NCBI GenBank assembly: GCA_949358305.1 | Contig: OX442322.1 | Span: 7,874,001 to 7,938,000 of the forward strand | Source: Strigamia acuminata | Lineage: Eukaryota > Arthropoda > Chilopoda > Geophilomorpha > Linotaeniidae | Direction: 5' to 3' | Length of the DNA: 64,000 bases | Part shown: one piece after another, positions 7,970 through 53,670 of the stretch | Numbering within the stretch: the stretch's first letter is position 1 | Layout of the letters: every line of letters starts with the position of its first letter | The notes under the pieces: generated by a model | What the model was told of the DNA's origin: nothing | The model's input: the letters and a program-made list of their open reading frames with translations, nothing else | Database searches by the model: none | Made by a program: the position numbers and the translations under genes

Positions 7970-10645
7970 CTATGTAATTCTTTGACGTAATAGGTTTGAA
8001 ATCCATTCAGGTATTCTTTTACCAACAGCGACCAAGCTTAACTTGACCAGTGTATTTATCATCTGTTTCTGTTTCAGTGGATCTTTTGAATAGAAACCAT
8101 AGTCTTGATGAGTGAAAGAAAATTTCTGATTTTTGCCTACAAACGACTTCATCTTTGTGCAAGGCGATCTATATCGATACTTAGGACGACGTGCATCTGC
8201 TTCCTTTACCAATTCGATTTCTGCGCCAACATTTCGATCTTGTTTGATAATAGTTTGACTCAAAACGTCTCTTGTATTTCTGAATAGTAAAGGTTTTTTG
8301 TCTATTTTCAGAAACTCGAGAAGCTTTTCCTTTTTTCCCAAGAACATTGGGCCTTTAATCGATTGAATTTCCTCTAGATTACTTCGAATCGAGCCCCAGA
8401 AATTTAAAAAGTCCGGGTGGGATAACCTTACACTCCAATTCCGAGTCCAACTCTTCTCCACACGGTAACGAGGAATATTTTCCCGGCCGAAAGAACCAAG
8501 TAGCCAGCTCTTGACTGCATGTCCAGATCCTTCCTTTCGAGAAAGCATGGTCTTTGATGATTCGGGAAGGTTTGAGTTGACTGTGCAGAAACAACTTGAC
8601 TTTTCATCTGAAATTTGACTCAACTTCTTGCGATGGACGACTTCCGATGCTTGAGTTGCGATTAGGACCGGATTTTTTGATTTGTTCCGGATAATTTGGC
8701 CTTGTTCTACCGAGAGACACGATACAGCTGCGCTAGTATCCGAATATTCATCCAAATCGTGGTTTGTGTTTCCAATCGATCCATTGGCAATCCAACCAAA
8801 TATCGTGCGAGACAAACCAAATGTTTTGCTAATCCGTTTTCTTCCACAGAGAGCAACTTTCCAAAAGTTGTCACCTCCTATTAGGAAGTCAATTTCATCC
8901 GTGACTGACGGATGCGGTTCAGCTAATTCCAATCCAAACGCCAATATTTTCTTGATAGTTTCGGCGTTTGTCAGTCCACTGACTGTGGGCAACGCTTTAG
9001 CTTTTAACGCATCAAATGTAAGCTTTTGATTTCCGTGACGTGACTGTAGCTCTACTGGAATTACGTCGTAATTAGCGGGAACCGCATGTTCATCATCCAA
9101 TCGCTTCATCATGTATGCTACGGATCCCTTCTTTGTCATCCGAAGGCATTCGACCAATTTGGTAGATACGTACGACCGGTGACTCCCGGGGTCAAGAAGA
9201 CCTCGGACGATAACTGGCTCCTTGTTTTTTCGGATTAATTGAGCTGAAAATACCATCAACTGAATACTCGATGCAACTGCTAAAGATACATTTGCAGAGA
9301 CACTGGATTGGGTGGGAATTTCTTCTTTCTTTTCAGCAGGTTTTTCTTCCCCTTTTTGACAAATTATCGTGTGATGTCGACCACCACATTTCCTGCAACT
9401 GAAGCTTACCAAGCAGTCTTTCGCCGAATGATTTCTGCGGAGGCAATTAAAGCATAAGCGCTTTTGTTTAGCGATTTCTGTTCGTTCCGCAACAGTAAGA
9501 GAAGCGTCGCATTTCGCATTATAATGTGATCCGTCACAAAAAACGCAGACGATTTTTCCCGACCCCATTGGACCGGATGGTTTCGGTTTGTCCTTCCCTG
9601 ACTGTGAGATGAAACAGGTTGACATGGTGCCTTTTCGCGTAAAATCCGACTCTTTCGGTGACTTTTCTAATTTTTCTTGTTTTTTCTTAGATGCTTTAGC
9701 TTTCATAACCGTTTCTTCGGCAAGTTCAGCGATTCTAAGTTCTTCCGCAACAAATTCCACGAACTTCAGCACGTTGTCCATTCGACCTTGGTTGGTGCGG
9801 TGGTAACGTTTCGCTATGTCAGGTGGAAACTTTTCCAGAAGGTCAGGCACAAGGAAAAGACCAGCTGTTCGGATAGGTACATGTAGCTTATCGAGCGTTT
9901 TTAATGAGGATGAAATCGATGTCAACAATTGCTTGACCGGCAGGACTGGATACATCTCGTGTACCGCCTTGAGTTCGCGTATCGACTTTACCAATGCATT
10001 CTTCTGATTAATTTCAGATCCATAACGACTTCTTAGCTCTGCCAATGCAAGAGAGTAAGAGTCTTTGGTTAGTGGAAAAGATCCAACAACCTTTTCCGCA
10101 TCTCCGGTACAGGTTGACTTCAAGTATTGTAGTTTCTCGATGTCCGACAATTCATCGTTCTTGTCGACAGCAGCATCGAACATGTCTATATATGACTGGA
10201 ACTTCAGTGGGCTTCCATCATATTTGGTGATCTCAATCTTGGGTAGGCGTAAGTTATGCTTCTTTGACGACACCGATGTGAATCCGGTGTTGAACGTCTG
10301 TGAAGCAATGGCACTAGCTCCCAAGGAGGTTGAACTGGTCCGGGCGACTTCCACTCGCTTCTTCAAGTGGTTGACCTTCGATCCAATCTTGTCCAAACGA
10401 ACGATGAAATCCAGATATTTCTCCCTTGCCAGGTGCGGTTGGAGAACGGTGAGATCATCTATCAATGTAGCGTGTTGCTCCTGAATTGATTGGGAAATGG
10501 CATCCAACTCCCCAAAATCCTGCATGTTTGTTGACGTTCCCAACAAGTCTTCTACGTTCCCTATCTTCGATTTCCATAAGATTTCCCATTCTTCTATCTG
10601 ATCTGCGGACGGCGGTGTGACTGGAGTGGTTACTGGCAGTGACAT
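7970..10645 (-). CDS. BEL2 gag-protease polyprotein with decayed thymidine-kinase-like tail
   Basis: 891 codons. Residues ~1-330 form a BEL gag region (DUF1759-like, with coiled-coil-like segments). CCHC-type knuckles lie near 367-379 and at 398-411 and 417-429 (CRKCGGRHHTIIC). The aspartic protease (DUF1758-like) has LDPGSH at 484-489 and ends at FGWIANG (616-622). No RT or integrase follows. Instead, residues ~750-890 align with the BEL3 kinase fusion: both have an NFW motif, then a P-loop-like GPMFLGKKEKLLEFL (765-779), then a tail ending RIPEWISNLLRQRI like BEL3's RIPPWIPDLIRQRI. The P-loop Thr is Lys here, the catalytic DEGQF motif and zinc cysteines are absent, and the kinase region is about 100 residues shorter. 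I infer a dead kinase remnant on an otherwise open frame. Confidence 0.88.
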   Translation of the reverse strand: MSLPVTTPVTPPSADQIEEWEILWKSKIGNVEDLLGTSTNMQDFGELDAISQSIQEQHATLIDDLTVLQPHLAREKYLDFIVRLDKIGSKVNHLKKRVEVARTSSTSLGASAIASQTFNTGFTSVSSKKHNLRLPKIEITKYDGSPLKFQSYIDMFDAAVDKNDELSDIEKLQYLKSTCTGDAEKVVGSFPLTKDSYSLALAELRSRYGSEINQKNALVKSIRELKAVHEMYPVLPVKQLLTSISSSLKTLDKLHVPIRTAGLFLVPDLLEKFPPDIAKRYHRTNQGRMDNVLKFVEFVAEELRIAELAEETVMKAKASKKKQEKLEKSPKESDFTRKGTMSTCFISQSGKDKPKPSGPMGSGKIVCVFCDGSHYNAKCDASLTVAERTEIAKQKRLCFNCLRRNHSAKDCLVSFSCRKCGGRHHTIICQKGEEKPAEKKEEIPTQSSVSANVSLAVASSIQLMVFSAQLIRKNKEPVIVRGLLDPGSHRSYVSTKLVECLRMTKKGSVAYMMKRLDDEHAVPANYDVIPVELQSRHGNQKLTFDALKAKALPTVSGLTNAETIKKILAFGLELAEPHPSVTDEIDFLIGGDNFWKVALCGRKRISKTFGLSRTIFGWIANGSIGNTNHDLDEYSDTSAAVSCLSVEQGQIIRNKSKNPVLIATQASEVVHRKKLSQISDEKSSCFCTVNSNLPESSKTMLSRKEGSGHAVKSWLLGSFGRENIPRYRVEKSWTRNWSVRLSHPDFLNFWGSIRSNLEEIQSIKGPMFLGKKEKLLEFLKIDKKPLLFRNTRDVLSQTIIKQDRNVGAEIELVKEADARRPKYRYRSPCTKMKSFVGKNQKFSFTHQDYGFYSKDPLKQKQMINTLVKLSLVAVGKRIPEWISNLLRQRIT

Positions 10646-28762: not shown

Positions 28763-28785
28763 GAATGGCGCAGACGGTCGAGAAA

Positions 28786-31700
28786 TTATTTCTTCGCCGC
28801 CTGCGCTGACTCGTTTTTTGACTCGTTTTTTGCCATGGCGAGTTTAATCTCTGCCATCTGCTTCATTATCGCGTCAAACTTAGCGTCTTCTTTCGCTGTT
28901 CTTGGGCACTCATTGGAGTAGTGGCCCGGTTGGTTACACTTGAAACAGCGAATATTTGATTTGTCTCTTGGGGCTTCAGTCGATTTTTTCTTTTCAGGGT
29001 CTGCTTTCGACGGTGGCGTGTAATTTTTCCGAAAATACTTCGGAATTCGACCGGCATTTGGTTTTAACCTGGCGCGAAATTCTTCTACCGCTCTATCTCG
29101 ATGGATGAGATGTACTAGCGGTCCTTCCTCATCGCAACCCGTTGATAAGGTATCGCGATAGCTTCGTATTTCTTCGTCCGTCGAATAATCGTCTTTTTCT
29201 TCTTTTTCGTCTGATTTTCCGACATTTTGTTCGGCTTCCTCCCCCTCCTTGACCTCCTCCAGTGTCGCTTGCATGGCTGACGCTGTCGGTGCCTTTTTAG
29301 GGGCGGCCAAAGGGTTGGAAGGCAGCGGGGATGTCAGTTTATTTTTTATTTGCAAACCAACGCTAGCTTCTGCCAGCTCCATTATACCGCTAAGATATTC
29401 AGTAGGGCGCATAATCTTATCTGTCGCCCCATATCTTTCCGCACTCAACTTGAGACGTTTTGCGGTCGCTGCTTTCTCCGCTTCTGGTAAAGCGGAATAA
29501 TATCTCTTCTCGATATCTATCGTGTTCTCGAACAGGAAGGCGCTCATCTCCTCGTAGCTACCTCCTGTCGGTGCCCTTTCTTCAAGTAGCACCCTTTGCG
29601 AGTATTCCGACAAACCGCCGAGAAAGAAAAGGTTGAATCCCGTGGCGTGAAATTCCATCGGGGCCTTTTCGAACAACAATCTGGCGCGAATGTCGTAATC
29701 CATTATGGTTTCACCAGGCATCTGGCGAAGACCTCGCATCTTTCGGCTCACCTCTTCGGGTGTCTCGCCGTAGCGCAGGTCGAATCTCATTAAAAAGTCG
29801 TCCCAATTGACGCCTTTCAATCCTTGGTACCACTCACGTGCCGAGCCTGTCATTAGCTCGACAATACCGTGGGTGAGCATGTCTCCTACGGTGGCTTTAG
29901 TGGCAGTCTTAATTCGAATTACTTCGTCAAGGAAGCGATCTCCCGCTTTCCATGACCCGTCGAAACGGTTCTGAATATAAAATTGCCACCTAATATTCCC
30001 GGTAACACTCATGGTGTCACGTCGGGAGACAGCGTATTTTTTCTTTACGCGGTCACCAGTGCTACGATTACGATCGTTTCGTTTGCTCAGATCAATTCCC
30101 TCGGCTTTTAACGAGCCGAGTAGGGCTCTTCCAAGCTCTCCCATCGTATACTGCCGACCCGTCGAATCGGTAAACGCGCTTTGTCGGGGAAGGTCCTGAA
30201 ACTCCTCCCGTCGGTGGTCGCTATTTTCCGATCGACGTCGTTTCTCTCTATCGCGCGGAGAGTTGGATCTCTTCCGGCGATTACTTGATTTTTCCTTTCG
30301 TCTGTCGTCGTTGGATGAGGGGTCGGAGCTGGGGTCGGGAGACGGTGAGCGGCGTGGCGGGTTGCGCCGTGAAGAGTTTGACTCTTTCCGGCCCCTACGA
30401 CGGTCGTCACGTTCCCTTTCTCTGCGTTCATCGCGTTCTCTTTCCCTTCGTCTTTCTCCGGAACCTCTCTCCGAATCGTGATGACTGGGTGCATTTGACT
30501 CCAGTCCATCTGACGACGAATCACTATTTCCGTAGTGAAAATATTTCGGTCTTTCATCGCGTTTGCCTTCTTCTCGCGAAGAGGTGCGATCATGCGATTG
30601 TCTCCTTGACGACTCGTCGTCTTTAAGGATGGGCACTGGTTGTTGCCACTCAGTCCCTTGTGGATTATCATGCTGTTGGCTTGTGAGAGCTTGCTCTTCA
30701 TTTCGCCTAGCATTATTAGCGTTGATTAATCGCGTTATCGCATTATTTGTGGCTGAATCGAGAGCTTGCATGCGGGGCCGAGTTTGTTGTTCTCTGGCCG
30801 ACGCATCTCTCTTGCGCGGAGTAGCTGGTGTTGCTCTCTCCGGCTGGGGTTTGGGTTTGGCCTTCGGCGTGCGCTTTGGGTCTCCCTCTAGGCTCTCGTC
30901 GGACAGCTCGGATGAACTGACCTCTGGTTTGCGGACGGATTTCGGGTCATCTCGTCGCAATCTGGCCATAAATGCTCGCTCTGCTTCTTGTTGCGAGTGG
31001 AAAGCATATCGATGTGCTCTCAGGGCTCGGTCAACTATTTCTACCTCCTCGGGAGTAGTCGGATTGGGCTGGGTTCTGCCGTACTCGAGAGCTTGCGCTT
31101 CTCTTTCCGCCAGCTTCCTCCGTCTCTCGCGAATGGCTTGACGAGCCTCGTTCTCTGCATCCGCTTCAAATTGAGCGGAATCAACCAATTGTTGAGCGTG
31201 TGCACCTTCAACAATGGTGATTTGTGGGGATACACTGTGCGCTTTTAAAGCTGCACGTACGATCTGTAACGTTTCGTACACGGTAATTTTCCCCGTCGGA
31301 AGGGTGTATCTCACTCCTTCCGCCTGTGCCAATTGCATCGCATCAATCAAGGTGCCCGAGACGCTGTAAGGCTGGCTCGAAACACGCTTGACAGAGGATG
31401 AGTTGGACTTGTGTCCTTCGGACCTGACCGAAGCTGGGCGGCTTTGCGTAATTGGCGTGTTTAGTGCCGAATTAGCGGTCGTATTTGAGGCCGTCTTTTG
31501 TATCGGAGACGCTGCTTTCGGACTGCCCACCTCGGTGTCGTGCGTTAGACGAGGCGATTGGTTACGGGATAAAACCTCGTTTCCGCTCGTCTCGCCGTCA
31601 CGGTTAGAACGCGGCAGTTTGGAGTGAGATTGCTCTTCACCCCGCTCTGTCTCGTCCAATCGCTGCCTCGTCTCGGTGCGAGACGGGTGCGATGCCTCGG

Positions 31701-31896
31701 ATGCGCTTCTACGATCGGGTTTAGGCTTACGCCGTTTTTGCCTCGCTTCGTGCGCTGAGGCTTTGGGTAAGGGACCTCCAGATCGCAAGTGATAGTCGGC
31801 GCCTTTACGACTGCCGGCTCTCTTGTTTGCGTCGGAGTCGGAATCTGTTACTCGGGTATTATCTGCCATTTCTTGCTTTGGGTATGATGTAATCAC
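28786..31896 (-). CDS. Gypsy1 gag
   Basis: 1036 residues, starting at ATG 31896 only ~25 bases after the PBS. The N-terminal half is low-complexity and rich in Ser, Arg and Glu, with a strong RS/RE stretch (for example GERRRERERDERRERE). The conserved retrotransposon gag core (WYQGLKGVNWDDFLMRFDLRYGE) comes next, then a single CCHC knuckle CFKCNQPGHYSNEC near the end. The stop at 28786 follows two A_AAA_AAC heptamers by a few codons. At over 1000 residues it is long for a Ty3/gypsy gag, mainly because of the N-terminal extension, which may direct nuclear or RNA interactions. Confidence 0.93.
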   Translation of the reverse strand: MITSYPKQEMADNTRVTDSDSDANKRAGSRKGADYHLRSGGPLPKASAHEARQKRRKPKPDRRSASEASHPSRTETRQRLDETERGEEQSHSKLPRSNRDGETSGNEVLSRNQSPRLTHDTEVGSPKAASPIQKTASNTTANSALNTPITQSRPASVRSEGHKSNSSSVKRVSSQPYSVSGTLIDAMQLAQAEGVRYTLPTGKITVYETLQIVRAALKAHSVSPQITIVEGAHAQQLVDSAQFEADAENEARQAIRERRRKLAEREAQALEYGRTQPNPTTPEEVEIVDRALRAHRYAFHSQQEAERAFMARLRRDDPKSVRKPEVSSSELSDESLEGDPKRTPKAKPKPQPERATPATPRKRDASAREQQTRPRMQALDSATNNAITRLINANNARRNEEQALTSQQHDNPQGTEWQQPVPILKDDESSRRQSHDRTSSREEGKRDERPKYFHYGNSDSSSDGLESNAPSHHDSERGSGERRRERERDERRERERDDRRRGRKESNSSRRNPPRRSPSPDPSSDPSSNDDRRKEKSSNRRKRSNSPRDREKRRRSENSDHRREEFQDLPRQSAFTDSTGRQYTMGELGRALLGSLKAEGIDLSKRNDRNRSTGDRVKKKYAVSRRDTMSVTGNIRWQFYIQNRFDGSWKAGDRFLDEVIRIKTATKATVGDMLTHGIVELMTGSAREWYQGLKGVNWDDFLMRFDLRYGETPEEVSRKMRGLRQMPGETIMDYDIRARLLFEKAPMEFHATGFNLFFLGGLSEYSQRVLLEERAPTGGSYEEMSAFLFENTIDIEKRYYSALPEAEKAATAKRLKLSAERYGATDKIMRPTEYLSGIMELAEASVGLQIKNKLTSPLPSNPLAAPKKAPTASAMQATLEEVKEGEEAEQNVGKSDEKEEKDDYSTDEEIRSYRDTLSTGCDEEGPLVHLIHRDRAVEEFRARLKPNAGRIPKYFRKNYTPPSKADPEKKKSTEAPRDKSNIRCFKCNQPGHYSNECPRTAKEDAKFDAIMKQMAEIKLAMAKNESKNESAQAAKK
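28813..28831 (-). promoter_or_regulatory. Gypsy1 gag-pol -1 frameshift site (two tandem slippery heptamers)
   Basis: The minus strand contains A_AAA_AAC in the gag reading phase twice, at 28831-28825 and 28819-28813, separated by five bases. Pol lies in the -1 frame relative to gag. After slipping at either heptamer the -1 frame is open through the gag stop into pol. Gypsy2 has one such heptamer at the equivalent place. Confidence 0.88.
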
Positions 31897-37682: not shown

Positions 37683-37820
37683 AAAAATGCTTAAAACCAG
37701 GCATAACGACGAGAGTCGATGCGACTCAGATCGGGCGATTTGCACAAGGCAAATCAATGCTCCGTGCCCGAATCCTATCCTCGAATCGCTGGCGTTGAAA
37801 TCGACAGGCGATCTGAAAAA
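37683..37820. other. Junction between LTR5-like sequence and satellite
   Basis: 138 bp without similarity to the satellite or to the other LTRs. It ends ..CTGAAAAA immediately before the first satellite unit. It could be the 3' end of a BEL5 internal region or unique DNA. Confidence 0.35.
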
Positions 37821-39670
37821 AGTCAACTGTGATGAGATCAAAAGTCTATTCTTCCAAATCATTACTTGGCTGTTGCTAAAACTTACATTGAAGGCTTCTA
37901 CTAAGGTTTAAACACTATTTCTGAACATTCAGAGACATTGGTCATGTGGTGTTTGTGCTAAGTCAACTGTGATGAGATCAAAAGTCTATTCTTCCAAATC
38001 ATTGCTTGGCTGTTGCTAAAACTTACATTGAAGGCTTCTACTAAGGTTTAAACACTATTTCTAAACATTCAGAGACATTGGACTTGTGGTGTTTGTGCTA
38101 AGTCAACTGTGATGAGATCAAAAGTCTATTCTTCCAAATCATTATTTGGCTGTTGCTAAAACTTACATTGAAGGCTTCTACTAAGGTTTAAACACTATTT
38201 CTGAACATTCAGAGACATTGGCCATGTGGTGTTTGTGCTAAATCAACTGTGATGAGATCAAAAGTCTATTCTTCCAAATCATTACTTGGCTGTTGCTAAA
38301 ACTTACATTGAAGCCTTCTATTAAGGTTTAAACGCTATTTCTAAACATTCAGAGACATTGGTCTTGTGGTGTTTGTGCTAAGTCAACTGTGATGAGATCA
38401 AAAGTCTATTCTCCCAAATCATTACTTGGCTGTTGCTAAAACTTACATTGAAGGCTTCTACTAAGGTTTAAACACTATTTCTGAACATTCAGAGACATTG
38501 GACTTGTGGTGTTTGTGCTAAATCAACTGTGATGAGATCCAAAGTCTATTCTCCCAAATCATTGGTTGGATGTTTCTAAAACTTACATTAAAGCCTTCTA
38601 CTAAGGTTTAAACGCTATTTCTGAACATTCAGAGACATTGGTCATGTGGTGTTTGTGCTAAGTCAACTGCGATGTGAAATGAGCTCAAAATTTTTTTTTC
38701 AAAATTTATTGCTTGGATGTTGCTAAAACTTACATTGAAGCCTTCTACTAAGGTTTAAACACTATTTCTGAACATTCAGAGACATTGGTCATGTGGTGTT
38801 TGTGCTAAGTCAACTGTGATGAGATCAAAAGTCTATTCTTCCAAATCATTGCTTGGATGTTGCTAAAACTTACATTGAAGCCTTCTACTAAGGTTTAAAT
38901 ATTATTTCTGAACATTCAGAGACATTGGTCTTGTGGTGTTTGTGCTAAGTCAACTGCGATGTGAAATAAGCTCAAAATTTTTTTTTCAAAATTTATTGCT
39001 TGGATGTTGCTAAAACTTACATTGAAGCCTTCTACTAAGGTTTAAACACTATTTCTGAACATTCAGAGACATTGGACTTGTGGCGTTTGTGCTAAGTCAA
39101 CTGTGATGAGATCAAAAGTCTATTCTCCCAAATCATTACTTGGCTGTTGCTAAAACTTACATTGAAGGCTTCTACTAAGGTTTAAACACTATTTCTGAAC
39201 ATTCAGAGACATTGGACTTGTGGTGTTTGTGCTAAGTCAACTGTGATGAGATCAAAAGTCTATTCTTCCAAATCATTATTTGGCTATTGCTAAAACTTAC
39301 ATTGAAGGCTTCTACTAAGGTTTAAACACTATTTCTGAACATTCAGAGACATTGGCCATGTGGTGTTTGTGCTAAATCAACTGTGATGAGATCAAAAGTC
39401 TATTCTTCCAAATCATTACTTGGCTGTTGCTAAAACTTACATTGAAGCTTTCTACTAAGGTTTAAACGCTATTTCTGAACATTCAGAGACATTGGTCATG
39501 TGGTGTTTGTGCTAAGTCAACTGCGATGTGAAATGAGCTCAAAATTTTTTTTTCAAAATTTATTGCTTGGATGTTGCTAAAACTTACATTGAAGCCTTCT
39601 ACTAAGGTTTAAACATTATTTCTGAACATTCAGAGACATTGGTCTTGTGGTGTTTGTGCTAAGTCAACTG
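37821..39670. repeat. Satellite array, segment 1 (140/147-bp units)
   Basis: Units start AGTCAACTG and recur at 37821, 37961, 38101, 38241, 38381, 38521 and 38661. Two main types occur: A (140 bp, with TGATGAGATCAAAAGTC) and B (147 bp, with GATGTGAAATGAGCTC followed by a T-run). A variant A' carries GGTTGGATGTTTCTAAAAC. The segment is cut by BEL3 after AACTG at 39670. Confidence 0.95.
39667..39670. repeat. Target-site duplication ACTG of BEL3 (left)
   Basis: ACTG of the satellite precedes the LTR and is repeated at 46248-46251. The uninterrupted satellite reads AGTCAACTGCGATG. Confidence 0.85.
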
Positions 39671-41028
39671 TGTTTCTGGCAAGGTCGCAGGCGACAACCA
39701 GGCCAGAAGGAGGGGCGGCAATACTTGACTGCTGCTTGGCTAAAATTGATACACAGAAGTTGGCCAAAGACTTGAAGAAATGCAAACACTGGAATTGAAC
39801 TTGCTGCTTCACATGTTGATCTGCCACTGGTGAGTTCAAGGAGGAGGAAGGAGGATTTTTCTACTCACTGCACATTGCTTTCTGGTTGTATAGAGAAATG
39901 AAACTTGGAGAGAAATAAAAAGAACCCATTTTATTCTCTAAATTCTTAACAAGACTACTACAATTGAATCACGAGGATTTTACAAAGAAGTCACACGTTA
40001 ACAATAATAAGAAACAACAAGTGTAACTATCTCCACATTGTATAAGGACACTTGCACTTAAAGTTACAGAGGTCTCTAAGTGCTTGTAAAGAGAAATAAG
40101 TACTGCTGGCACAACAAAACTACCGTAGAAGTTAATAGTTGAAAACACATAAGCCTAACAGCAAGTATTTGACATTAAATGCAAAAGTATACATTAACAA
40201 CAGTCTCTAAACACAATGCTCATTGAGAACTAAATTATTCACTCTAAAACACACTGAACAACTCATAAAATAGAGAAAAGAATAAGTAAAGACATTTTAG
40301 ACCAATGAGCTGGCAACTTTACAGTAAGTGCAGAAGTTAAGTTATAAATCAACACAGATAAATCTTAAACTTAACACTTTTACATTGCATAATAATTAAG
40401 TGATTAATTATTAATCAGAACCCACAAAAACTCTTTGGGATTAAACATTTTCTCCTCTCTTTACAGATACAAGTAGACCACTCCCACAGTAATGGCCGAC
40501 AATGTAAACAGAGATCACTTGCAGGAAGATAAAAAGGCTTGAAATTAGCTCACTAGACAGGCTACACACAATCTTAGTTAACAAAACGCTTAATTGGTTA
40601 GTAATATACAGAAAACAAACAGAAATTGATTGAAACAGCTTAAAACTGATAATAACATACATTTCTCATTCTAGTACCCTTTTGCTGTCTGAGAGCATCA
40701 TTACACCTTGTCACTACATTGACAGTAGTGGACTGGAAACAGGAAAACACTTGGAAACATCAAAACATGCATAACACAGGTAAACAAGATAGAAAATAAA
40801 TTCTAAGTGGATAAATAACTAATGTAAAAACTCTTTTCTTCCCAGATTTATCCGGTCAGATCAACCAGTACTGAGAAATTCACTCAAACTAACTCAAAGA
40901 AGACTTATATTCAGATAAGTGTCTAATTAAATTCCCAATCTAAGATAAATATTAAAAACCCTTTTTAATAATTCCAGATGACTAATTTTTAAGACGTTTA
41001 GCAGCTTTCCTTTATGTTGCTAGCAACA
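39671..41028 (-). repeat. BEL3 3' LTR
   Basis: Runs TGTTTCTGGCAAGG..TTGCTAGCAACA on the plus strand, 1358 bp, the same as the 5' LTR. In element orientation it opens with the palindrome TGTTGCTAGCAACA, as in BEL2. Confidence 0.93.
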
Positions 41029-41063
41029 TAGATTGCCGGCGAAAAGAAAGTGCGAACAACCCA

Positions 41064-44000
41064 TCATTTAGTTTGATTACTTCTGGTCTTTGATGATAAT
41101 ATTTGGGAGACCTCTTTCACCTTTTTGTATTTCACTCTGGGTGGCAAGATTCTTTGACGGATCAAATCTGGTATCCACGGAGGTATTCTTCGGTTGACAA
41201 TCATACAACTAAGTCGAATAATTCCGTTGATGATTTTCCTTTTCGTCTCTAGGGACTTCATGGGCTTTGAGAAACATACTCGACAGGTTGGTTTGTATTT
41301 GTCGATCCCTCCTATCACCTTGACTCTGGTTTCGTGCGAAATTCGTCTTGAAAATTCAGCTTTATCTCCGCAAAAATAACATTTTGCTTGTAGTTTCACA
41401 ACAGACTCGGCTAGTGGAACTAACTTGGATATCTGATCAAATGGCTTCCTCTTGAAGTCGACGTCTAATGCGGCGACTATTACCTTTTTCTTTTGCTCAG
41501 CCATTTCATTTGAAAAAGTAAAAATGTCGGGAAAAAACTGTCCTTCATCAATTCCGATTGTCTTCATTAATTTCGTTTTTTCCACAGCATTGGTTAGGCT
41601 ACTGGTCGCGATTGCTTCTCGTCGATGACCATCGTGGGTCACGACTTCGGCTTTACTGTAACGTTCGTCATTGGAGTGCTTAATGAGCAAGGACGACGTC
41701 TTCTCTTCCTTTTCTAAGATCTTCAATAACTTGGTTGTTTTCCCGGCATACATTAGACCAAGGATAAGGTGAATTCCTCTTTGATTGGTCGATAAGACAT
41801 TTTTCTTTCTCCAGAAATTGAAAATCAATTCTCCGGTCCATCTCAGGATTGCACACAATTTGGGTAAACTGGGCACTTGGTTTGCTTTCTTTCTCAGTGA
41901 CTCCGACTGATTTCGCCCTCGTAATTCCGGCTTCATGTCCGAGCTTGGAGTTCTGTTGACCAATCCTCCATCCTTGAACGACTTTTTCGTTTTTTGGAGG
42001 GTGGTGTCCAGTTCCTCTTTCTCCAGACCACTGGAGAGGCTCGCGGCAAAACAAGAAGGTGTGACGTCTGTCTGTTTATTCACACCGGGTTTGCCATTCA
42101 TGTCGGACAGTGATTTCGGAATTAACTGGACTATTTTGTTTTCGTCATTTTCAGGTTGATTTGAGATCACTTCTTCTTTGGACTCGACCGCCATGCAAGA
42201 AATGTTGCACGCTGCCATGTTTTCTTCAAACGGGTTGTTTGGTTTCAGTCGACCGTTTAGAATCCACCCAAAAATTGTCTGCATTAATCCCAACTCGTCG
42301 TTGATTTTTCGGCTTCCACCTTGACAAATCTTCCACCATGCGTTGCTTCCTAATAAGACGTCAATGTCTTCCGATTCTGACGGATGTATCTCAGCCATCT
42401 CAAGTCCGAGTGATTGGACCTGCTTTATGGCTTCTGCTCCAATTATCCCTTTGACTTTCGGGAGCGTGTCGGTTTCTAATGCAAGGATTGATGTCTTTTC
42501 CGTTCCGTGTCTTGATTGCAGTTCGAATCTAAAGACATCATGTGTCGTCGGAACTGGCTTTTTGTTGAGCAGACACTGTGTCATCGTGTGTAGTGTCTCG
42601 ATCTTTTGCATCCGGAATTTATTTACTAGTCTCTTCATGACGTAGGAGCGATGGCTTCCTGGATCTAGTAATCCGCGGACGGGGTACATGTCTCCATTTT
42701 TCTTCACAAAAAGAGCAGTGAAGACCATCAGTTGAATCTCCACCGACTCGGTAAGCGATACATTAGTAGACACGTTTTCTTCTTTTGGTGTAATCGCTTT
42801 TTCTTTGTTGTTTTTGTTGCAGATCGATGTGTGATGTCTTCCACCACACAAGCGACAACAAAACTTCACGGTACATTCTTTGGCTGTGTGGTTATATCTC
42901 AAGCAGTTGAAACAAAGTCGTTTCTTCTTCACTATTTCGATCCTCGCCGGTACATCTAGATCGGCGTCACAGTTTGCGTGTGCGTGATCACCATCACAAT
43001 AAGCGCTTGCGGGTTTGCGGTTTGGATTCGACTTGGAATTCATGCTTAATTTTCCATTCTCAGAAGTCACGAATGAGGACATTGTTCCAGTTGGTCTTTC
43101 TCTTGTTTCCTTTGAAGTTTTCTCAAATTTTTCTGACTTCTTCAGATGAGCGCGCTTAAGGAGAACGCTTTCTTCCGACAATTCAGCCAGTTGTATCTCG
43201 GTTGCTACGAAGTCCAGAAAAACGTTAACATCATCAACTTTTCCTTGATGCTTTCGGTAAAAACGTTGGGAGATCTCCGGTGGAAATTTTCTAAGTAGTT
43301 CTGGAATAAGGTACGTTCCAGTAGTGTCAACTGACACAGACAGTTGCGCCATGGTCCGGACAGCAGATGCCAATGACGTGAATAGAGCTTTAAGTGGCTC
43401 GATTGGGTAGAGATCGAAAACGGGTTTCGACTCCCTAATCATCTTTGAAATCGCATTTCTCTGCGTGTTTTCAGATCCGAATAGACTCTCCAATGTATTT
43501 TTCGCTAATGGGTAGGCGTCATCAGTTATTGGGTACGACTTGATTGCGGATTCTGCAGCCCCAGTGCAGCATGACCTCAAATATATAAGCTTTTCCACGT
43601 TCGAAAGCTCCGTGTTCTGGTCAACTGCTGAGTCAAATAAATTCGCGAAGCCTCTATATTCAGTTGCATCGCCACTAAATTTGGAAATGTCCGTTTTTGG
43701 CAATCTAGTGTTTCTCCTGGATGAAGCGGATGTTTGGTTTAAACTGGAATTCTGTCCCGGATGGGACCCAAATTGCTCTGCCATTTTTTCAGACACTTTG
43801 GCTCTTTGTTTCAATAAATTAACTCTGGTTCTAATGTCTTCAATTCGTTGAAGCCCTGCTAAATAATCCTCTCTTTTTGACTCGTCTTTAAGAGCTTTCA
43901 ATTCGTCGGCGAGATCACTCAATTGCTGGTCAACCGTTATTTGCATGGCTTCCAGCTCTCCTCCGTCTAGAATGTTGACTGAAGATCCCAGCAGATCCTC

Positions 44001-44078
44001 GGCTCCTTGAGCCTTTGCTTTCCAAATGACCTCCTTTTCCTCGAGATCAGCAGCGGATAATGTAGCCATAATCCTCAC
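41064..44078 (-). CDS. BEL3 gag-protease-thymidine kinase fusion polyprotein
   Basis: 1004 residues. Met4 (44069) aligns better with the BEL2 start than Met1. Gag ~1-330 is DUF1759-like with a predicted coiled coil. CCHC knuckles use C389, C392, H397 and C402, then C408..C420. Protease LDPGSH lies at 471-476 and its domain ends FGWILNG (603-609). After a variable linker, residues ~768-938 form a type II (TK1-like) thymidine kinase: P-loop GLMYAGKT (774-781), GIDEGQFFPD (842-851) with the expected catalytic Glu845, VIVAALD (866-872), FKRKPF, LVPLAESVVKL, and zinc-site cysteines C900, C903, C932 and C935 with VIGGIDKY between them. All expected catalytic residues are present. A basic tail (940-1004) is shared with BEL2. 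The predicted reaction is ATP-dependent phosphorylation of thymidine to dTMP, possibly raising dTTP for reverse transcription. Fold and motifs are seen; the role is inference. Confidence 0.95.
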   Translation of the reverse strand: MRIMATLSAADLEEKEVIWKAKAQGAEDLLGSSVNILDGGELEAMQITVDQQLSDLADELKALKDESKREDYLAGLQRIEDIRTRVNLLKQRAKVSEKMAEQFGSHPGQNSSLNQTSASSRRNTRLPKTDISKFSGDATEYRGFANLFDSAVDQNTELSNVEKLIYLRSCCTGAAESAIKSYPITDDAYPLAKNTLESLFGSENTQRNAISKMIRESKPVFDLYPIEPLKALFTSLASAVRTMAQLSVSVDTTGTYLIPELLRKFPPEISQRFYRKHQGKVDDVNVFLDFVATEIQLAELSEESVLLKRAHLKKSEKFEKTSKETRERPTGTMSSFVTSENGKLSMNSKSNPNRKPASAYCDGDHAHANCDADLDVPARIEIVKKKRLCFNCLRYNHTAKECTVKFCCRLCGGRHHTSICNKNNKEKAITPKEENVSTNVSLTESVEIQLMVFTALFVKKNGDMYPVRGLLDPGSHRSYVMKRLVNKFRMQKIETLHTMTQCLLNKKPVPTTHDVFRFELQSRHGTEKTSILALETDTLPKVKGIIGAEAIKQVQSLGLEMAEIHPSESEDIDVLLGSNAWWKICQGGSRKINDELGLMQTIFGWILNGRLKPNNPFEENMAACNISCMAVESKEEVISNQPENDENKIVQLIPKSLSDMNGKPGVNKQTDVTPSCFAASLSSGLEKEELDTTLQKTKKSFKDGGLVNRTPSSDMKPELRGRNQSESLRKKANQVPSLPKLCAILRWTGELIFNFWRKKNVLSTNQRGIHLILGLMYAGKTTKLLKILEKEEKTSSLLIKHSNDERYSKAEVVTHDGHRREAIATSSLTNAVEKTKLMKTIGIDEGQFFPDIFTFSNEMAEQKKKVIVAALDVDFKRKPFDQISKLVPLAESVVKLQAKCYFCGDKAEFSRRISHETRVKVIGGIDKYKPTCRVCFSKPMKSLETKRKIINGIIRLSCMIVNRRIPPWIPDLIRQRILPPRVKYKKVKEVSQILSSKTRSNQTK
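41265..41777 (-). other. Captured TK1-type thymidine kinase domain within BEL3
   Basis: This is the part of the BEL3 ORF encoding residues ~768-938. It has no introns and keeps every motif of cellular and viral type II thymidine kinases at normal spacing, ~170 residues in all. Capture from a processed transcript is the simplest origin. Whether the donor was the host TK1 gene or a DNA virus cannot be told from the sequence alone. Confidence 0.93.
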
Positions 44079-44889
44079 CGAGAAATGAAGAATTCAAGGA
44101 TCAGTTCAGGATTCAAACTCAACTTAACTGACTAAATTGGTTAACAAGAAATTGTCTAATTCTTTTACACTCTAGGATTTACTGAACACACAAAAACAGG
44201 ATGGATATCCACAAACTGTTAACAGGATTGAAACACACGAGATGTTAAAAGGATTGGCAAATTAACCCCCAAAATTCAATAATTAAAGGTAATTGACAAT
44301 TCTCTTATTTTCACAATTGAGTTTCTGACTAGATACTCGTTTTAAATTGGGATACCAACACTAAAGCTTGGTATTATTCACTAATTCACTGGATATTCTC
44401 TAAATTCCACAAACTGGAATCGAGAATTTTATCAAATGGTTAAGACTTAAACTTCTTCTCCCCCCAACTACACCAGTTTCTAATCAAAAACTCCTTTGAA
44501 ATGATTACAGCAGCAAATTCGGATATTATTCTATTTAAATAATAATTCTTAATAATTATTTCTTCAAATCTTCTTGTAGGATGTACATTGCGTTGTGTTT
44601 GGAATTGATTGTCGTGCAGGATCGCTCGTACTCTCGAAGCCTTGCTTGATCCAAGTTGAAAAACATCTTGACCATCTTGACAATTTGAGAATCCAACTTG
44701 AAAAACCCACTTTTTTGCCCGTGAAAGGCGGACGAGAGCATACACTTCACTGTAGTGGCACAACTTCAATGGCACTTTACACATAAAAGCTTTGCACAGC
44801 TTGAGAACAAAACCCACTGATGAATTTTGCAGCACACATGAAGGTCCACTGAGATAACTGGAAGAAATCCTTGGTTCACGGTACCAAAT
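44079..44889 (-). other. BEL3 5' leader
   Basis: AT-rich leader between the LTR and gag. A segment near 44583-44615 (ACATTGCGTTGTGT..ATTGATTGTCG) resembles the BEL2 leader near 11250. No supported ORF. Confidence 0.6.
44869..44886 (-). promoter_or_regulatory. BEL3 primer-binding site
   Basis: The minus strand reads TGGTACCGTGAACCAAGG, three bases inside the 5' LTR. It resembles the BEL2 site. Part of it (CCGTGA) is like a tRNA-His complement, but the match is too weak for an assignment. Confidence 0.65.
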
Positions 44890-46247
44890 TGTTTCTGGCA
44901 AGGTCGCAGGCGACAACCAGGCCAGAAGGAGGGGCGGCAATACTTGACTGCTGCTTGGCTAAAATTGATACACAGAAGTTGGCCAAAGACTTGAAGAAAT
45001 GCAAACACTGGAATTGAACTTGCTGCTTCACATGTTGATCTGCCACTGGTGAGTTCAAGGAGGAGGAAGGAGGATTTTTCTACTCACTGCACATTGCTTT
45101 CTGGTTGTATAGAGAAATGAAACTTGGAGAGAAATAAAAAGAACCCATTTTATTCTCTAAATTCTTAACAAGACTACTACAATTGAATCACGAGGATTTT
45201 ACAAAGAAGTCACACGTTAACAATAATAAGAAACAACAAGTGTAACTATCTCCACATTGTATAAGGACACTTGCACTTAAAGTTACAGAGGTCTCTAAGT
45301 GCTTGTAAAGAGAAATAAGTACTGCTGGCACAACAAAACTACCGTAGAAGTTAATAGTTGAAAACACATAAGCCTAACAGCAAGTATTTGACATTAAATG
45401 CAAAAGTATACATTAACAACAGTCTCTAAACACAATGCTCATTGAGAACTAAATTATTCACTCTAAAACACACTGAACAACTCATAAAATAGAGAAAAGA
45501 ATAAGTAAAGACATTTTAGACCAATGAGCTGGCAACTTTACAGTAAGTGCAGAAGTTAAGTTATAAATCAACACAGATAAATCTTAAACTTAACACTTTT
45601 ACATTGCATAATAATTAAGTGATTAATTATTAATCAGAACCCACAAAAACTCTTTGGGATTAAACATTTTCTCCTCTCTTTACAGATACAAGTAGACCAC
45701 TCCCACAGTAATGGCCGACAATGTAAACAGAGATCACTTGCAGGAAGATAAAAAGGCTTGAAATTAGCTCACTAGACAGGCTACACACAATCTTAGTTAA
45801 CAAAACGCTTAATTGGTTAGTAATATACAGAAAACAAACAGAAATTGATTGAAACAGCTTAAAACTGATAATAACATACATTTCTCATTCTAGTACCCTT
45901 TTGCTGTCTGAGAGCATCATTACACCTTGTCACTACATTGACAGTAGTGGACTGGAAACAGGAAAACACTTGGAAACATCAAAACATGCATAACACAGGT
46001 AAACAAGATAGAAAATAAATTCTAAGTGGATAAATAACTAATGTAAAAACTCTTTTCTTCCCAGATTTATCCGGTCAGATCAACCAGTACTGAGAAATTC
46101 ACTCAAACTAACTCAAAGAAGACTTATATTCAGATAAGTGTCTAATTAAATTCCCAATCTAAGATAAATATTAAAAACCCTTTTTAATAATTCCAGATGA
46201 CTAATTTTTAAGACGTTTAGCAGCTTTCCTTTATGTTGCTAGCAACA
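44890..46247 (-). repeat. BEL3 5' LTR
   Basis: 1358 bp, matching 39671-41028 by eye. It is followed by the satellite with the duplicated ACTG. Confidence 0.93.
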
Positions 46248-46356
46248 ACTGCGATGTGAAATAAGCTCAAAATTTTTTTTTCAAAATTTATTGCTTGGAT
46301 GTTGCTAAAACTTACATTGAAGCCTTCTACTAAGGTTTAAACACTATTTCTGAACA
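46248..46356. repeat. Satellite array, segment 2
   Basis: A 109-bp piece of a B-type unit (CGATGTGAAATAAGCTC followed by a T-run) lies between BEL3 and Gypsy2. It begins with ACTG duplicated by BEL3 and ends with AACA duplicated by Gypsy2. Both elements therefore entered the same repeat unit. Confidence 0.93.
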
Positions 46357-49587: not shown

Positions 49588-52500
49588 TTATCGATTGTTT
49601 GAGACAATGGCCGGAGTCGCTTTTTGTTTTCCGACGAGTTTCCCGTCTTTTATGAACGGGTTTGGCTTGTGTCGACGCATACCGTATATTTTATCAGGTT
49701 TGAGGATTCTTGTAGTCTTATTTTTGTTTGATTGCTTTCCTTTTTTAGGAGATTCTTCGACTATTTCCTCCCTCTCCGAAATCTCATCCGGGGCGTCGGC
49801 CGCTTCGTGTGACTCATCTTGAACTAAATTGGTTGGGCCAGTTTGTTCATCTAAAAACATGTCGCGAATAATTGGATTTTGCGCTGGTTTCGTCTGATAT
49901 TCCGTCCAAGCCTCTTGAGGAAACTCAGGTAAGTATGGAGTTAATTCTCGGGCGTGGATCGATCTAAAATTAACGTTGTCTGCCAATCTTTTTAGCTTGA
50001 AAGCGTTTCCGCCGTGGGCTTCGAGTATGACGTACGGGCCGTCGCGTTTGTCTGCTAAGCCTGCGTGGACCCCCTTATTGGCGCTGGACTGAATATGTGT
50101 GTCTTTCCAGACGAGGTCATTGACTTTAAAATTGCAGAAGGGCCGATCCTTTCCAGCAATGCTAATACGATCTCTCATGTCGAATATGTGTGACATCATG
50201 TGCTGATAAGTGGCCGAAATTATTTGCTCCAGTCTGTCGACATAAATATGAGGCTTCTCAGGATCAATTTCCAGTATTTCCTCCGGTATTCGTGGGTCCC
50301 AGGGTACTCTGAGTTCCCGAGCGAAGTTTAGAAACGCGGGAGAAAATTTGCGGTTCCTTGAGATCGTTGTGCGGATGCTGAAGGCAATTTCACGAAGATA
50401 TTCGTCCCAGCTGGAGTGAACATCGGTGAAAATTGCTAGTGCATATTTTATATCGCGATTTAACCTTTCGACGGGATTGGCCCGTGGATTATAGGTTGAT
50501 GTATATGATGTCTCGATGTCGAATTTTTTACAGAAGTCTTTGTACAAATTTGACGCGAATTGTGGTCCATTATCGGAGATTAATTTTCGAGGGAATCCAA
50601 AATGAAGCGCCACTTCGTACAAACATCGAATGATTTTTTGCTTAGTTGGTCTCTCCATTGGAAAGAGTTCGGGCCATCCAGTCGCGACATCCATGATTAC
50701 TAATATATATTTGTTTTTATTGGATGACGTGGGCTTTGGGCCCATTAAATCCACGCTCCAGCAATCGAAGGGTGCGAAAGGGCCAAGTGAGATTCTCTCG
50801 TAGCTCTTGGGCGTCCTCGGCTTGCACGCTTGGCATCTGGGGCAGTGATGAATAAAACGAACGATATCTCGGGTCATTTTTGGCCAGAAATAAAGTTGAT
50901 TTGCTCGGTAGATCGTTCTGGCCACTCCAGAATGTCCGGCGAGCGGGTGTCCGTGGACCATCCACAGAAACCTTGTCAGCAGACTCCTGGGTATAACGAC
51001 TTTCATCGAAGTTCCCGTCTCCGTCAGATCATCGCGGAAATTCGGGTGGTGTTTTAGTAGAAGTCCATCCTCGATTAAGTACGTGGAGGCTTCTCTTTCG
51101 AATTCTTCGCGTTGGATTTCGTCGAAATTCTCGTCGGGAAATTTTTTATCTGTGATGAAGTTTCGATAAGTTTTACAGAAGTCGTCTGTCATCTGGGCGG
51201 CTATTAATTCGTCCCTGGTGGGCGGCTTACTATTCGTCCCCTTGCTTACGTGGGCGACGAATGCTCGAACGTACTTGTCGGAGATTCGAGGTTCTATCGT
51301 TAGCTCGTAATTTGGGTGAGCGTCCTTGACAGACTGGTATGCTCGGAGCCAATAATTGTAATAATTTTGGTCTCCTGACTCGAGTTTCTCCTTGGGTAAT
51401 TCGTTTAGCTTTTTAAATTCCCATTTTCGGACGGGGTTCGGACAGTAGAAGAGGCGTGAGTCGTCCTCTCCGCAGTCGGTCTCGTCTTCGGGGTCTGAAG
51501 CTGGGGCTCGTGAGAGGGCGTCTGCCACGACGTTGAATTTTCCGGGTCGGTATTCAATGATTAAGTCACAAGCCATTAATTCTAGCTGCCAGCGAGCCAT
51601 TCTTCCGGATGGTTCCTTCAACGCCATTAACCACTTTAGTGCTTCGTGGTCAGTTTGTACGTTGAACTTGGTAAATTCCAGGTATGGTCTGAATTTTCGG
51701 ATTGCCCAGACGACGGCTAGACATTCTAACTCTGTCGCATTATAATTCTTTTCGGCTGCTTGTAATTTCCGGCTGATGAACATCGTCGGGACCTCTAACA
51801 CTACTCCGTCGATGTCATGCTTTTGAAGCAACGCAGCACCTAGGCCAATTCGACTGGCGTCGGTGTGAAGAGTGAATTCTCGATTAAGATCTGGTAGGGG
51901 AATTCGTTTTACATCGATCAGCATTTGTTTTATCTTGTTAAACGATGTTTCGCAGTGGTCAGTCCACTCGAAATCTTTATCGTTGCGTAACAGATCTGTG
52001 ATGGGTGCCGCGACGTCTGCCAAATTTGGGAGCAATCGATTGAAGAAATTCACCATGCCCATGAAACGTTGGACTCCTTTTACATCTTCCGGGGCGGGGA
52101 ACTGGCTAATCGCCTGGGTCTTTTTCGGGTCGATGGATAGGCCACCTGTTCCGACTGTGTAACCCAGGAATGCCAATTCTTTGCGGCAAAATTTACTTTT
52201 CCCTGGATGAATGTTTAGACCGGCTTTTGTGAGTCGCTCCATGACGTCATTCACGTGTATCAGGTGGTCTTCAAAAGTTTGGGAGACTATGACTATATCA
52301 TCGAGGTAAGCCCATGCGTATTTGTGTAAGGCATCGCCGAGAACTTTTTCTATTAGTTTTTGAAAGGTGGCGGGTGCGTTTACTAACCCGAAGGGCATTA
52401 CATTAAACATCAGTCGACCCTGTGGTGCCCAAAAAGCTGTTTTCTCTTTATCCTCTTCCCGCAATTCAACCTGCCAGTAACCCTTGGACAAGTCCATGGT

Positions 52501-53670
52501 CGTGACCCAGTTAAATGGGGCGAGCTCCCGTAGAATCGCTTCTATTGACGGCATTTGGATGGGGTCGATGACGGTTATGGCGTTTAAAGGTCTATAATCG
52601 ATGCAGAGGCGCGGTTCGGAGCCTGGTCGCATGACGAGGACAATCCTCATTCCATATTCTCCGATGGCGTGCGACACGATCCCTTTTTCGAGCAACTCGT
52701 TGCACATCGTTCTTACGATATGTCTCTTTTGGGGATTCATAGTTTTAAAAGGTACTCGCACCGGTTTTCCCGTAACCAATTCGATCTCGTGCATTACGTA
52801 ACTAGTCTTTCCTGGATCTTTATTTAAGTTCTTCGAGTGCTTCTTGAGCATTTCCTCGAGGAGTTTCGTTTGTTCTTCTCCAAGATTGGCGTCCATGGCC
52901 AGATTATGTATTAAATTCTCCTCTTGGAGGATAGTATTAAACGACTTAAAATTATAGTCTTGGATGAACTTCTTAATTTCGCCTCCTCCCCATTCCTCGT
53001 CGTCCTTAGCTTTGTCTAGGAGTTCCGGAGGTATTATGGGTAGTCGTGGGTCCTCGTGGTTGTCGATGTAATTCCACGAACGTGTGACTGGGTTGGGCTG
53101 GATGTTCATCCGTTCCATCAAATCCATTCCTATCAGCAGGATTGTGTCTCGGGTTGGTAACACGATGAAGAAATGCTTAATCGTGCCTCCTTCCCATACA
53201 AAATCGGTTGATAACGTCCCCACTGCTCTAACTTCTCCCGCTGCTGTAAGAACTCGAATGTTCTCGTTCATTCCCCGTAATTTTTTCTGTATTTTTTCTT
53301 CGAGTGATTCGAATAAGTCGGTGGAGATAAACGACTGATCCGCTCCCGAGTCGAGTAGTCCCATTAACACCTTTTTGCCGAAAGAGACTGGTATTTTAGC
53401 CAGTACGCTCTTCGCTTCTGTTGATAGGTTGCAACGAAGTATTCGCTTTTTAAGAGGATTGGCCCCTTGGTCAAGCGGCAAAGTCATGAAAGCGTTGGCT
53501 ATACCGTCTTCGTCTCTAATTTCGAATTTCCGTTTTTTGGTTGGAGTTGTGACTTCCTCGTTGGCAGCTTCCTCGAAGAATTCCAACAATTTTTCCATTT
53601 CTTTAATTTGTTTTTCCACCAGAGTAAGGTCCATCGTTTTCGAAGTTATCGCGAGCGGATGTGGAATCAC
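49588..53670 (-). CDS. Gypsy2 pol (protease, RT, RNase H, integrase)
   Basis: 1360 residues in the -1 frame relative to gag. The nominal first codon is GTG, so expression is by frameshift at 53694-53700 rather than by its own start. The protease has LLDSGAD (105-111), RT has MDLSKGY then YLDD (455-458), RNase H has LHTDASRIGLG, the integrase finger ends CPRCQACK, and the catalytic core shows VDLMGPK, SDNGPQF and NPVERLN. The GPY/F motif is DGPYVI. It is highly similar to Gypsy1 pol throughout, including the C-terminal NPFIKDGKLVGK. The frame is intact. Confidence 0.95.
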   Translation of the reverse strand: MIPHPLAITSKTMDLTLVEKQIKEMEKLLEFFEEAANEEVTTPTKKRKFEIRDEDGIANAFMTLPLDQGANPLKKRILRCNLSTEAKSVLAKIPVSFGKKVLMGLLDSGADQSFISTDLFESLEEKIQKKLRGMNENIRVLTAAGEVRAVGTLSTDFVWEGGTIKHFFIVLPTRDTILLIGMDLMERMNIQPNPVTRSWNYIDNHEDPRLPIIPPELLDKAKDDEEWGGGEIKKFIQDYNFKSFNTILQEENLIHNLAMDANLGEEQTKLLEEMLKKHSKNLNKDPGKTSYVMHEIELVTGKPVRVPFKTMNPQKRHIVRTMCNELLEKGIVSHAIGEYGMRIVLVMRPGSEPRLCIDYRPLNAITVIDPIQMPSIEAILRELAPFNWVTTMDLSKGYWQVELREEDKEKTAFWAPQGRLMFNVMPFGLVNAPATFQKLIEKVLGDALHKYAWAYLDDIVIVSQTFEDHLIHVNDVMERLTKAGLNIHPGKSKFCRKELAFLGYTVGTGGLSIDPKKTQAISQFPAPEDVKGVQRFMGMVNFFNRLLPNLADVAAPITDLLRNDKDFEWTDHCETSFNKIKQMLIDVKRIPLPDLNREFTLHTDASRIGLGAALLQKHDIDGVVLEVPTMFISRKLQAAEKNYNATELECLAVVWAIRKFRPYLEFTKFNVQTDHEALKWLMALKEPSGRMARWQLELMACDLIIEYRPGKFNVVADALSRAPASDPEDETDCGEDDSRLFYCPNPVRKWEFKKLNELPKEKLESGDQNYYNYWLRAYQSVKDAHPNYELTIEPRISDKYVRAFVAHVSKGTNSKPPTRDELIAAQMTDDFCKTYRNFITDKKFPDENFDEIQREEFEREASTYLIEDGLLLKHHPNFRDDLTETGTSMKVVIPRSLLTRFLWMVHGHPLAGHSGVARTIYRANQLYFWPKMTRDIVRFIHHCPRCQACKPRTPKSYERISLGPFAPFDCWSVDLMGPKPTSSNKNKYILVIMDVATGWPELFPMERPTKQKIIRCLYEVALHFGFPRKLISDNGPQFASNLYKDFCKKFDIETSYTSTYNPRANPVERLNRDIKYALAIFTDVHSSWDEYLREIAFSIRTTISRNRKFSPAFLNFARELRVPWDPRIPEEILEIDPEKPHIYVDRLEQIISATYQHMMSHIFDMRDRISIAGKDRPFCNFKVNDLVWKDTHIQSSANKGVHAGLADKRDGPYVILEAHGGNAFKLKRLADNVNFRSIHARELTPYLPEFPQEAWTEYQTKPAQNPIIRDMFLDEQTGPTNLVQDESHEAADAPDEISEREEIVEESPKKGKQSNKNKTTRILKPDKIYGMRRHKPNPFIKDGKLVGKQKATPAIVSNNR

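Follow-up and report, generated by a model that had tools for sequence, protein, structure and literature searches.

Retroviral dUTPases are enzymes of nucleotide metabolism carried by reverse-transcribing elements, and the viruses that carry them keep reverse transcriptase (RT) and integrase. Plant TR-GAG elements, of the Gypsy superfamily, are long terminal repeat (LTR) elements without pol; centromeric ones occur in coffee, they are presumed to rely on the proteins of complete elements, and no captured enzyme is described for them in the portion of the source drawn on here (PMC5818461). Maize Bs1 is an LTR element with transduced host gene segments, none of them full length according to the portion of its description drawn on here (PMC13317346). 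The locus described in the present work lies in a 64,000-nucleotide stretch of contig OX442322.1 from the centipede Strigamia acuminata (the window) and is a BEL/Pao-derived retrotransposon, termed BEL-TK, in which a TK1-type thymidine kinase (TK) is fused to Gag. It shares the absence of pol with TR-GAG and the possession of captured sequence with Bs1, but it keeps a full enzyme domain in two subfamilies. Its cargo, like that of the dUTPase-bearing retroviruses, belongs to nucleotide metabolism, although the enzyme is a different one and neither RT nor integrase is matched. As far as these sources go, gag-only LTR elements and LTR elements with transduced host sequence are already known, and the apparent novelty is a complete nucleoside kinase joined to Gag where pol would otherwise stand.

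BEL-TK has an LTR pair, TG...CA ends and a target duplication, and is a complete LTR retrotransposon of 6577 bp on the minus strand (39671-46247). The LTRs show zero differences over 1358 bp, and the 4-bp duplication reads ACTG on the plus strand (CAGT on the minus strand) at both flanks. The LTR of this subfamily begins TGTTGCTAGCAACA. An earlier reading made from the letters of the window alone (the sequence-only reading, which labelled the element BEL3) had described matching 1358-bp LTRs and a clean target duplication, and both are borne out. The internal region of 3861 bp holds one long frame of 1004 codons, which ends 35 bp short of the 3′ LTR (Table 1). The single open reading frame of that reading also stands, except that its listed start is a GTG and the first ATG follows only as codon 4, at position 44069. 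Below, A (the window type) and B denote the kinase-bearing subfamilies, C a lineage with a kinase remnant, and L-numbers further loci of the same genome.

The frame carries the DUF1759-type gag of BEL/Pao elements, and Pao-type RT, RNase H and integrase were not matched: six Pfam families matched at E≤0.1, and none of them is an RT, RNase H, integrase or protease family. With gag present and pol absent, as in TR-GAG, the element is a non-autonomous BEL/Pao derivative and not a full member of the group. D[TS]G is the defining motif of a catalytic aspartic protease. The protease part of the window frame was identified by alignment with lineage C and with autonomous BEL elements, and at the active site A, B and C all have DPG where both autonomous relatives have DTG. 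The order gag, zinc knuckles and aspartic protease given by the sequence-only reading holds for gag (by Pfam), the knuckles (read and aligned) and the protease part (aligned), but not for a DTG or DSG active site. From what is known of retropepsins, the altered triad would disable the protease. Because of this alteration Gag and the kinase probably stay joined, and Gag-TK may remain one fused protein.

The kinase, which the sequence-only reading had placed where RT would be expected and had proposed to check against PF00265, matches that family strongly at residues 769-936 (178.6 bits, E 1.3e-52, cut-off 20.6). The match runs over the length of the domain, the P-loop, catalytic Glu and four Cys of TK1-type enzymes are all present, and the fold agrees. 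Human TK1 is the closest solved structure (2wvj, 4.1e-42), and it was also ranked first when the kinase model was submitted to Foldseek (1xbt_D, 3.3e-18). In an AlphaFold model of residues 700-1004, block means are 84-97 over most of the kinase (two blocks have 69 and 74), while the linker has about 65 or less and the tail 42-65. The kinase shares fold and catalytic motifs with human TK1 (2wvj, 1xbt) and differs in its fusion to Gag and its extra tail; identity is 42-46% to human TK1 (Foldseek human TK1 rows) and 48.6-51% to other outside kinases among five matches listed. The full motif set (P-loop, Arg-Tyr/His, DEGQFF, AAL and two Cys pairs) was present in 27 of 29 sources, namely the window and L001-L028, two pairs of which overlap, and in 12 of 13 when only the window and L001-L012 are counted; the overall misses are L002 and L024. 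Wherever an A or B copy matched the set, its P-loop Lys, DEGQFF and four Cys are identical to those of the others. The P-loop, DEGQFF and Cys pairs quoted by the sequence-only reading were thus found, with the qualification that its GLMYAGKT is the window's variant of GPMYAGKT, as seen in L009.

Two features of the genome (237.5 Mb in 157 contigs) agree with an animal source: it has BEL elements, which are known from animals, and a 15-kb mitochondrial contig in whose COX1 TGA is read as Trp. Searches of this genome show that the window copy is one of many. A kinase search gave 150 scored matches of 205 candidates, all 150 above the curated cut-off. With a gag-protease query, 69 of 1309 candidates were scored, comprising 51 copies of subfamily A (97-100% identical), 17 of subfamily B (57-58% identical, with frames of 995 or 1002 codons) and one 87% fragment. 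The A frames are of 1009-1013 codons in 47 of the 51 copies, and of 799, 954, 836 and 880 codons in the other four. An LTR query found 122 candidates, of which the 40 scored are all 99-100% identical, and many LTR pairs lie ∼5.2 kb apart; the pairs of L009, L010 and L012 are 99.9-100% identical and flanked by duplications of 4-5 bp. The element has spread recently with its kinase cargo, as the sequence-only reading had concluded. That reading had named an assembly chimera as what would undo it. Chimerism, or contamination, is refuted because there are many separate copies on many contigs, LTR pairs at a regular spacing and a second subfamily at 58% gag identity, and its probability is negligible.

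Between the window copy and a B copy, L010, 358 of 617 gag-protease residues (58%) and 94 of 168 kinase residues (56%) are identical, against 35 of 135 (26%) in the linker and 22 of 44 in the tail. By this measure the kinase is held about as tightly as gag-protease, beside a drifting linker. Within subfamily A (window versus L009, NG86), the nonsynonymous (dN) and synonymous (dS) divergences are 0.018 and 0.129 for the kinase, 0.006 and 0.086 for gag-protease and 0.058 and 0.095 for the linker. On sequence comparison, the kinase is under purifying selection and the gag-kinase fusion predates the split of A and B. A catalytic role is suggested mainly because the active-site residues survive while the linker drifts. 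Alternatively, the kinase fold might be kept as a structural part of Gag, for oligomerization or nucleotide binding, with no selection on catalysis. TK1 enzymes are oligomers, and a structural role would also suit both the joining of the kinase to Gag downstream of a changed protease motif and the P-loop substitution of the window copy. A scaffold needs no catalytic Glu, however, and the P-loop Lys, DEGQFF and the four Cys are kept in both A and B, while lineage C manages without the kinase fold. We regard a purely structural role as unlikely.

Lineage C is present in the window as a second BEL gag frame (7970-10645), of complex LTR layout. Pfam found no kinase in this frame. It has ∼40 residues resembling the beginning of the kinase, which score 56 against A (reached by none of 2000 shuffles, of which the best scored 55) and 53 against B (reached by one of 2000). 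It also has the same tail, which scores 88 against A, where no shuffle out of 2000 exceeded 45, and 71 against B, where the best shuffle gave 47. A genome search with the C gag, in which 69 of 1246 candidates were scored, listed 27 copies of lineage C, 19 with the 892-codon frame and the rest partial, two with an internal stop. The same search gave 10 matches at 49-50% identity, seven of which have frames of 1752-2105 codons, and 32 at 47-48%, mostly of 995 or 1002 codons, which are subfamily B. The gag tree joins A with B (100/100) and A, B and C with a pair of autonomous BELs (100/100), but leaves C unplaced: a group of A, B and C has support of 48/12, and a tree that puts C beside the autonomous BELs withstands the AU test (p-AU 0.63). 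Since the gag tree does not place C, it is the DPG motif, the tail and the kinase remnant, all shared with C, that speak for a capture of the kinase earlier than the separation of C.

The autonomous pair, L041 (auto1752; 1752 amino acids) and L040 (auto2105; 1760 amino acids of a 2105-codon frame), are the two of the ten 49-50% matches that were read. L041 contains DUF1759, DUF1758, the Pao domain PF05380, the integrase zinc domain H2C2 and DUF5641, and L040 contains DUF1759, PF05380, H2C2 and DUF5641; RVT_1 was matched in L041 only, at 28.5 bits, below the 29.6 cut-off. Both resemble BEL-TK in their DUF1759 gag, protease part, single long frame and similar LTR start, and differ in having their own PF05380, integrase zinc domain and DTG motif, where the kinase-bearing element has DPG and none of these domains. 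Subfamily A aligns by BLAST with both at 42% from residue 5 to 628 or 633 (numbered from the ATG) and with nothing beyond. Because the alignment ends there, pol appears to have been replaced downstream of the FGWI segment. The sequence past the auto1752 stop codon matches 13 of 14 bases of the B LTR start (equalled by none of 5000 shuffles) and 12 of 14 of the A LTR start (4 of 5000), and auto2105 matches the A LTR start at 11 of 14 (14 of 5000). Sequence comparison thus gives A, B and one autonomous BEL, auto1752, a common LTR start. Given this matching LTR start and the gag kinship, autonomous BELs of the same clade are candidate helpers. A genome search for the Pao domain scored 150 of 1068 candidates, many with frames of 1738-1816 codons, and BEL families look very active.

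We propose that a BEL/Pao element captured an intronless TK1-type kinase, which took the place of its RT-RNase H-integrase part in frame, and that BEL-TK is probably mobilized in trans by autonomous BELs that belong to its clade and reside in this genome. Uncleaved Gag-TK would place the kinase on or in the particle, where it would phosphorylate thymidine and so provide more thymidine triphosphate (dTTP) for reverse transcription in dTTP-poor cells. Deoxynucleoside triphosphate (dNTP) levels can limit reverse transcription, and it is because of this and of the conserved catalytic residues that a role in dTTP supply is suggested. We give the proposal as a whole a probability of roughly 0.55; the identity of the helper, the lack of cleavage, catalysis, packaging and the dTTP benefit are the parts that we infer.

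Several results weigh against this proposal. The window P-loop has Leu for the Pro of L009, the other subfamily A copy compared. Within A the kinase is constrained, yet less so than gag-protease, and the tail is without visible constraint (dN 0.039, dS 0). Between A and B, dS is saturated and yields no ratio, and selection between the subfamilies is read from the identity contrasts and dN. On the helper side, the match of auto2105 to the B LTR start (10 of 14 bases) is equalled by 211 of 5000 shuffles and is unconvincing, and the gag-protease search, in which 69 of 1309 candidates were scored, turned up no autonomous BEL whose gag is close to that of A, all 69 being A, B or the 87% fragment. 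The kinase is not required for mobility in lineage C, because C is multicopy with intact frames although its kinase is nearly lost; this argues against a strict need for the kinase and counts against an essential role in dTTP supply.

The multicopy state of C would also fit a kinase that is a passenger, aiding the host or all elements alike, conferring no specific benefit on its carrier and being lost in C. Moreover, dTTP is a diffusible good, and the genome also has dNK-type and thymidylate synthase matches. The retention of the kinase in A and B, about as strict as that of gag-protease while the linker drifts, argues the other way, and we consider a mere passenger improbable. BEL-TK offers a clear-cut example in which a reverse-transcribing element parted with the enzymes of its own replication and retained, under selection, a predicted DNA-precursor enzyme. 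With it one can ask experimentally whether retrotransposition in germ cells is limited by dNTP supply, and whether a non-autonomous element can pay its helper by supplying substrate; two kinase-bearing subfamilies and one lineage near kinase loss provide a natural comparison.

Three more classes of intact, intronless TK1-type kinase frames were found in long dispersed repeats of this genome, R190 (L013-L017), R216 (L018, L019 and L023-L028) and R221 (L020-L022). R190 and R216 are similar mainly over the 523-bp kinase (79% at the DNA level; dN 0.119, dS 1.006), with short weaker stretches in addition, and over about 10 kb no gene other than the kinase was seen to be clearly conserved between them. 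The P-loop of one R216 copy, L024, is changed. Six open reading frames of the R190 and R216 repeats had no Pfam match above cut-off, and between copies the other frames of these repeats mostly have dN near dS, stops or too few differences. An integrase-type frame (H2C2, rve) lies on the opposite strand near an R221 kinase (L021:8190-9809) and was not seen in one scanned frame of L020. In a tree of 53 kinases, eight repeat-borne kinases form one clade (100/98) apart from 45 others and the two BEL subfamilies are sisters (99/95), although the tree program flagged an unsettled bootstrap and the length of some outside rows. The 45 were hand-picked from the best 120 of 682 protein matches ranked by similarity to the R190 kinase, with the Trypanosoma congolense kinase omitted; these best 120 are at most 50% identical to R190.

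A source other than a host TK1, namely a large integrated DNA virus, would be compatible with the proposed capture. Four thymidylate synthase frames, all intact and scoring nearly alike, are located 150-413 kb from four R221-class kinases (classed by frame length; contigs C3, C5 and C13), as if thymidylate synthase and kinase perhaps belonged to one large multicopy element or integrated DNA virus, and the eight repeat-borne kinases compared form a single clade. These distances are large, however, no thymidylate synthase match lies near a fifth R221 kinase (C13:7.71 Mb), no viral core gene turned up in results that do not include DNA polymerase B, and the host's own TK1 gene was not identified. 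A viral origin is possible but doubtful. More broadly, and tentatively, thymidine salvage may in this animal lineage have become an accessory of mobile DNA, with one captured kinase lineage selected in the Gag-fused BEL clade and in three repeat classes, some of them perhaps from a large DNA virus with thymidylate synthase, and with elements competing over dTTP.

Searches of the open-licence PMC literature listed no earlier description of an LTR retrotransposon that carries a thymidine kinase, in keeping with the sequence-only reading, which knew of no such BEL element. For Gag-TK elsewhere, a protein search with residues 755-945 (491 candidates, limited to those of 0.55-1.75 times the full frame length that share words with the query) gave one match at E≤0.001, the Trypanosoma congolense kinase. 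A search with the gag part (8000 candidates scored) gave seven BEL proteins, 22-39% identical, none listed with PF00265, and in IMG/VR five stretches matched a pattern and none was confirmed. Beyond what the sequence-only reading had seen, the element is non-autonomous, with RNase H and integrase unmatched as well as RT, belongs to at least two kinase-bearing subfamilies with a remnant lineage beside them, has an altered protease triad and has kin kinases in three repeat classes.

Table 1. Coordinates in the window of BEL-TK, its parts and associated sequences.
Feature	Position	Strand	Evidence
Whole non-autonomous BEL-TK element, subfamily A	39671..46247	-	Identical LTR pair, TG..CA, 4-bp duplication
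5′ LTR, 1358 bp	44890..46247	-	100% identity with 3′ LTR
3′ LTR, 1358 bp	39671..41028	-	100% identity with 5′ LTR
Target-site duplication copy 1, ACTG on +	39667..39670	.	Flank sequence
Target-site duplication copy 2, ACTG on +	46248..46251	.	Flank sequence
Putative tRNA primer-binding site	44870..44886	-	TGG 3 bases past 5′ LTR
Putative plus-strand priming sequence, similar in A, B and C	41029..41049	-	Precedes 3′ LTR; role inferred
Single gag-protease-TK frame	41064..44078	-	Open reading frame list, Pfam; first ATG at 44069
BEL gag domain DUF1759, residues 134-275	43254..43679	-	Pfam PF03564, E 3.7e-17
Cys/His-rich knuckle region, residues 361-420	42819..42998	-	Read from sequence, aligned to lineage C; no Pfam match
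Protease active-site motif DPG replacing DTG, residues 472-474	42657..42665	-	Aligned to two autonomous BELs, each with DTG
Fast-evolving linker, residues about 629-767	41778..42194	-	35/135 identical between A and B; homology to autonomous BELs over
TK1-type thymidine kinase domain, residues 769-936	41271..41774	-	Pfam, structure matches, model
C-terminal tail	41067..41270	-	First part alike in A, B and C (shuffle scores)
Lineage C gag-protease frame, 891 amino acids, with kinase remnant and same tail	7970..10645	-	40% identical over residues 8-804
140-bp satellite array at insertion site	37820..39672	.	Repeat analysis of window

A 19-base pattern containing the putative primer-binding site has 91 genome matches with at most one mismatch, versus none for a backward control, and most of these fall in BEL-TK-bearing stretches (matches were not paired one by one with copies). 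A neighbour of such a site, C1:42527200 (L039), was set aside, having only short frames and no BEL protein match.

The listed A, B and C copies are concentrated on C13 (7.9-10.3 Mb), C8 (6.8-7.6), C5 (12.1-15.5), C1 (64.6-66.5), C9 (0.1-1.1) and C11 (0.1-0.6), with others on C4 (at 0.4), C6 (at 15.2 Mb) and small contigs. None of the best 150 of 1068 Pao-domain matches, a best-scoring set and not a random sample, lies inside these BEL-TK intervals; two lie just outside the C8 interval and five on small contigs, one of which, C63, also carries an A copy. Two of the ten autonomous-type places are inside the C5 interval. The 140-bp satellite occurs in the fetched stretch of four of the five elements whose flanks were read (the window and L009-L012), the exception being L010. 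On their 3′ side, the insertions in the window and at L009 border the same satellite position to within 2 bases. This suggests targeting to, or survival in, satellite regions. Satellite arrays at 37820-39672 and 57237-59706 flank LTR elements in the window, which also holds long frames of one copia-type and two gypsy-type LTR elements (14959-19962, 24692-31896 and 49588-56513). Inverted copies of ∼1.5 kb (3504-4999 and 62505-64000), 99-100% complementary, lie close to both window ends.

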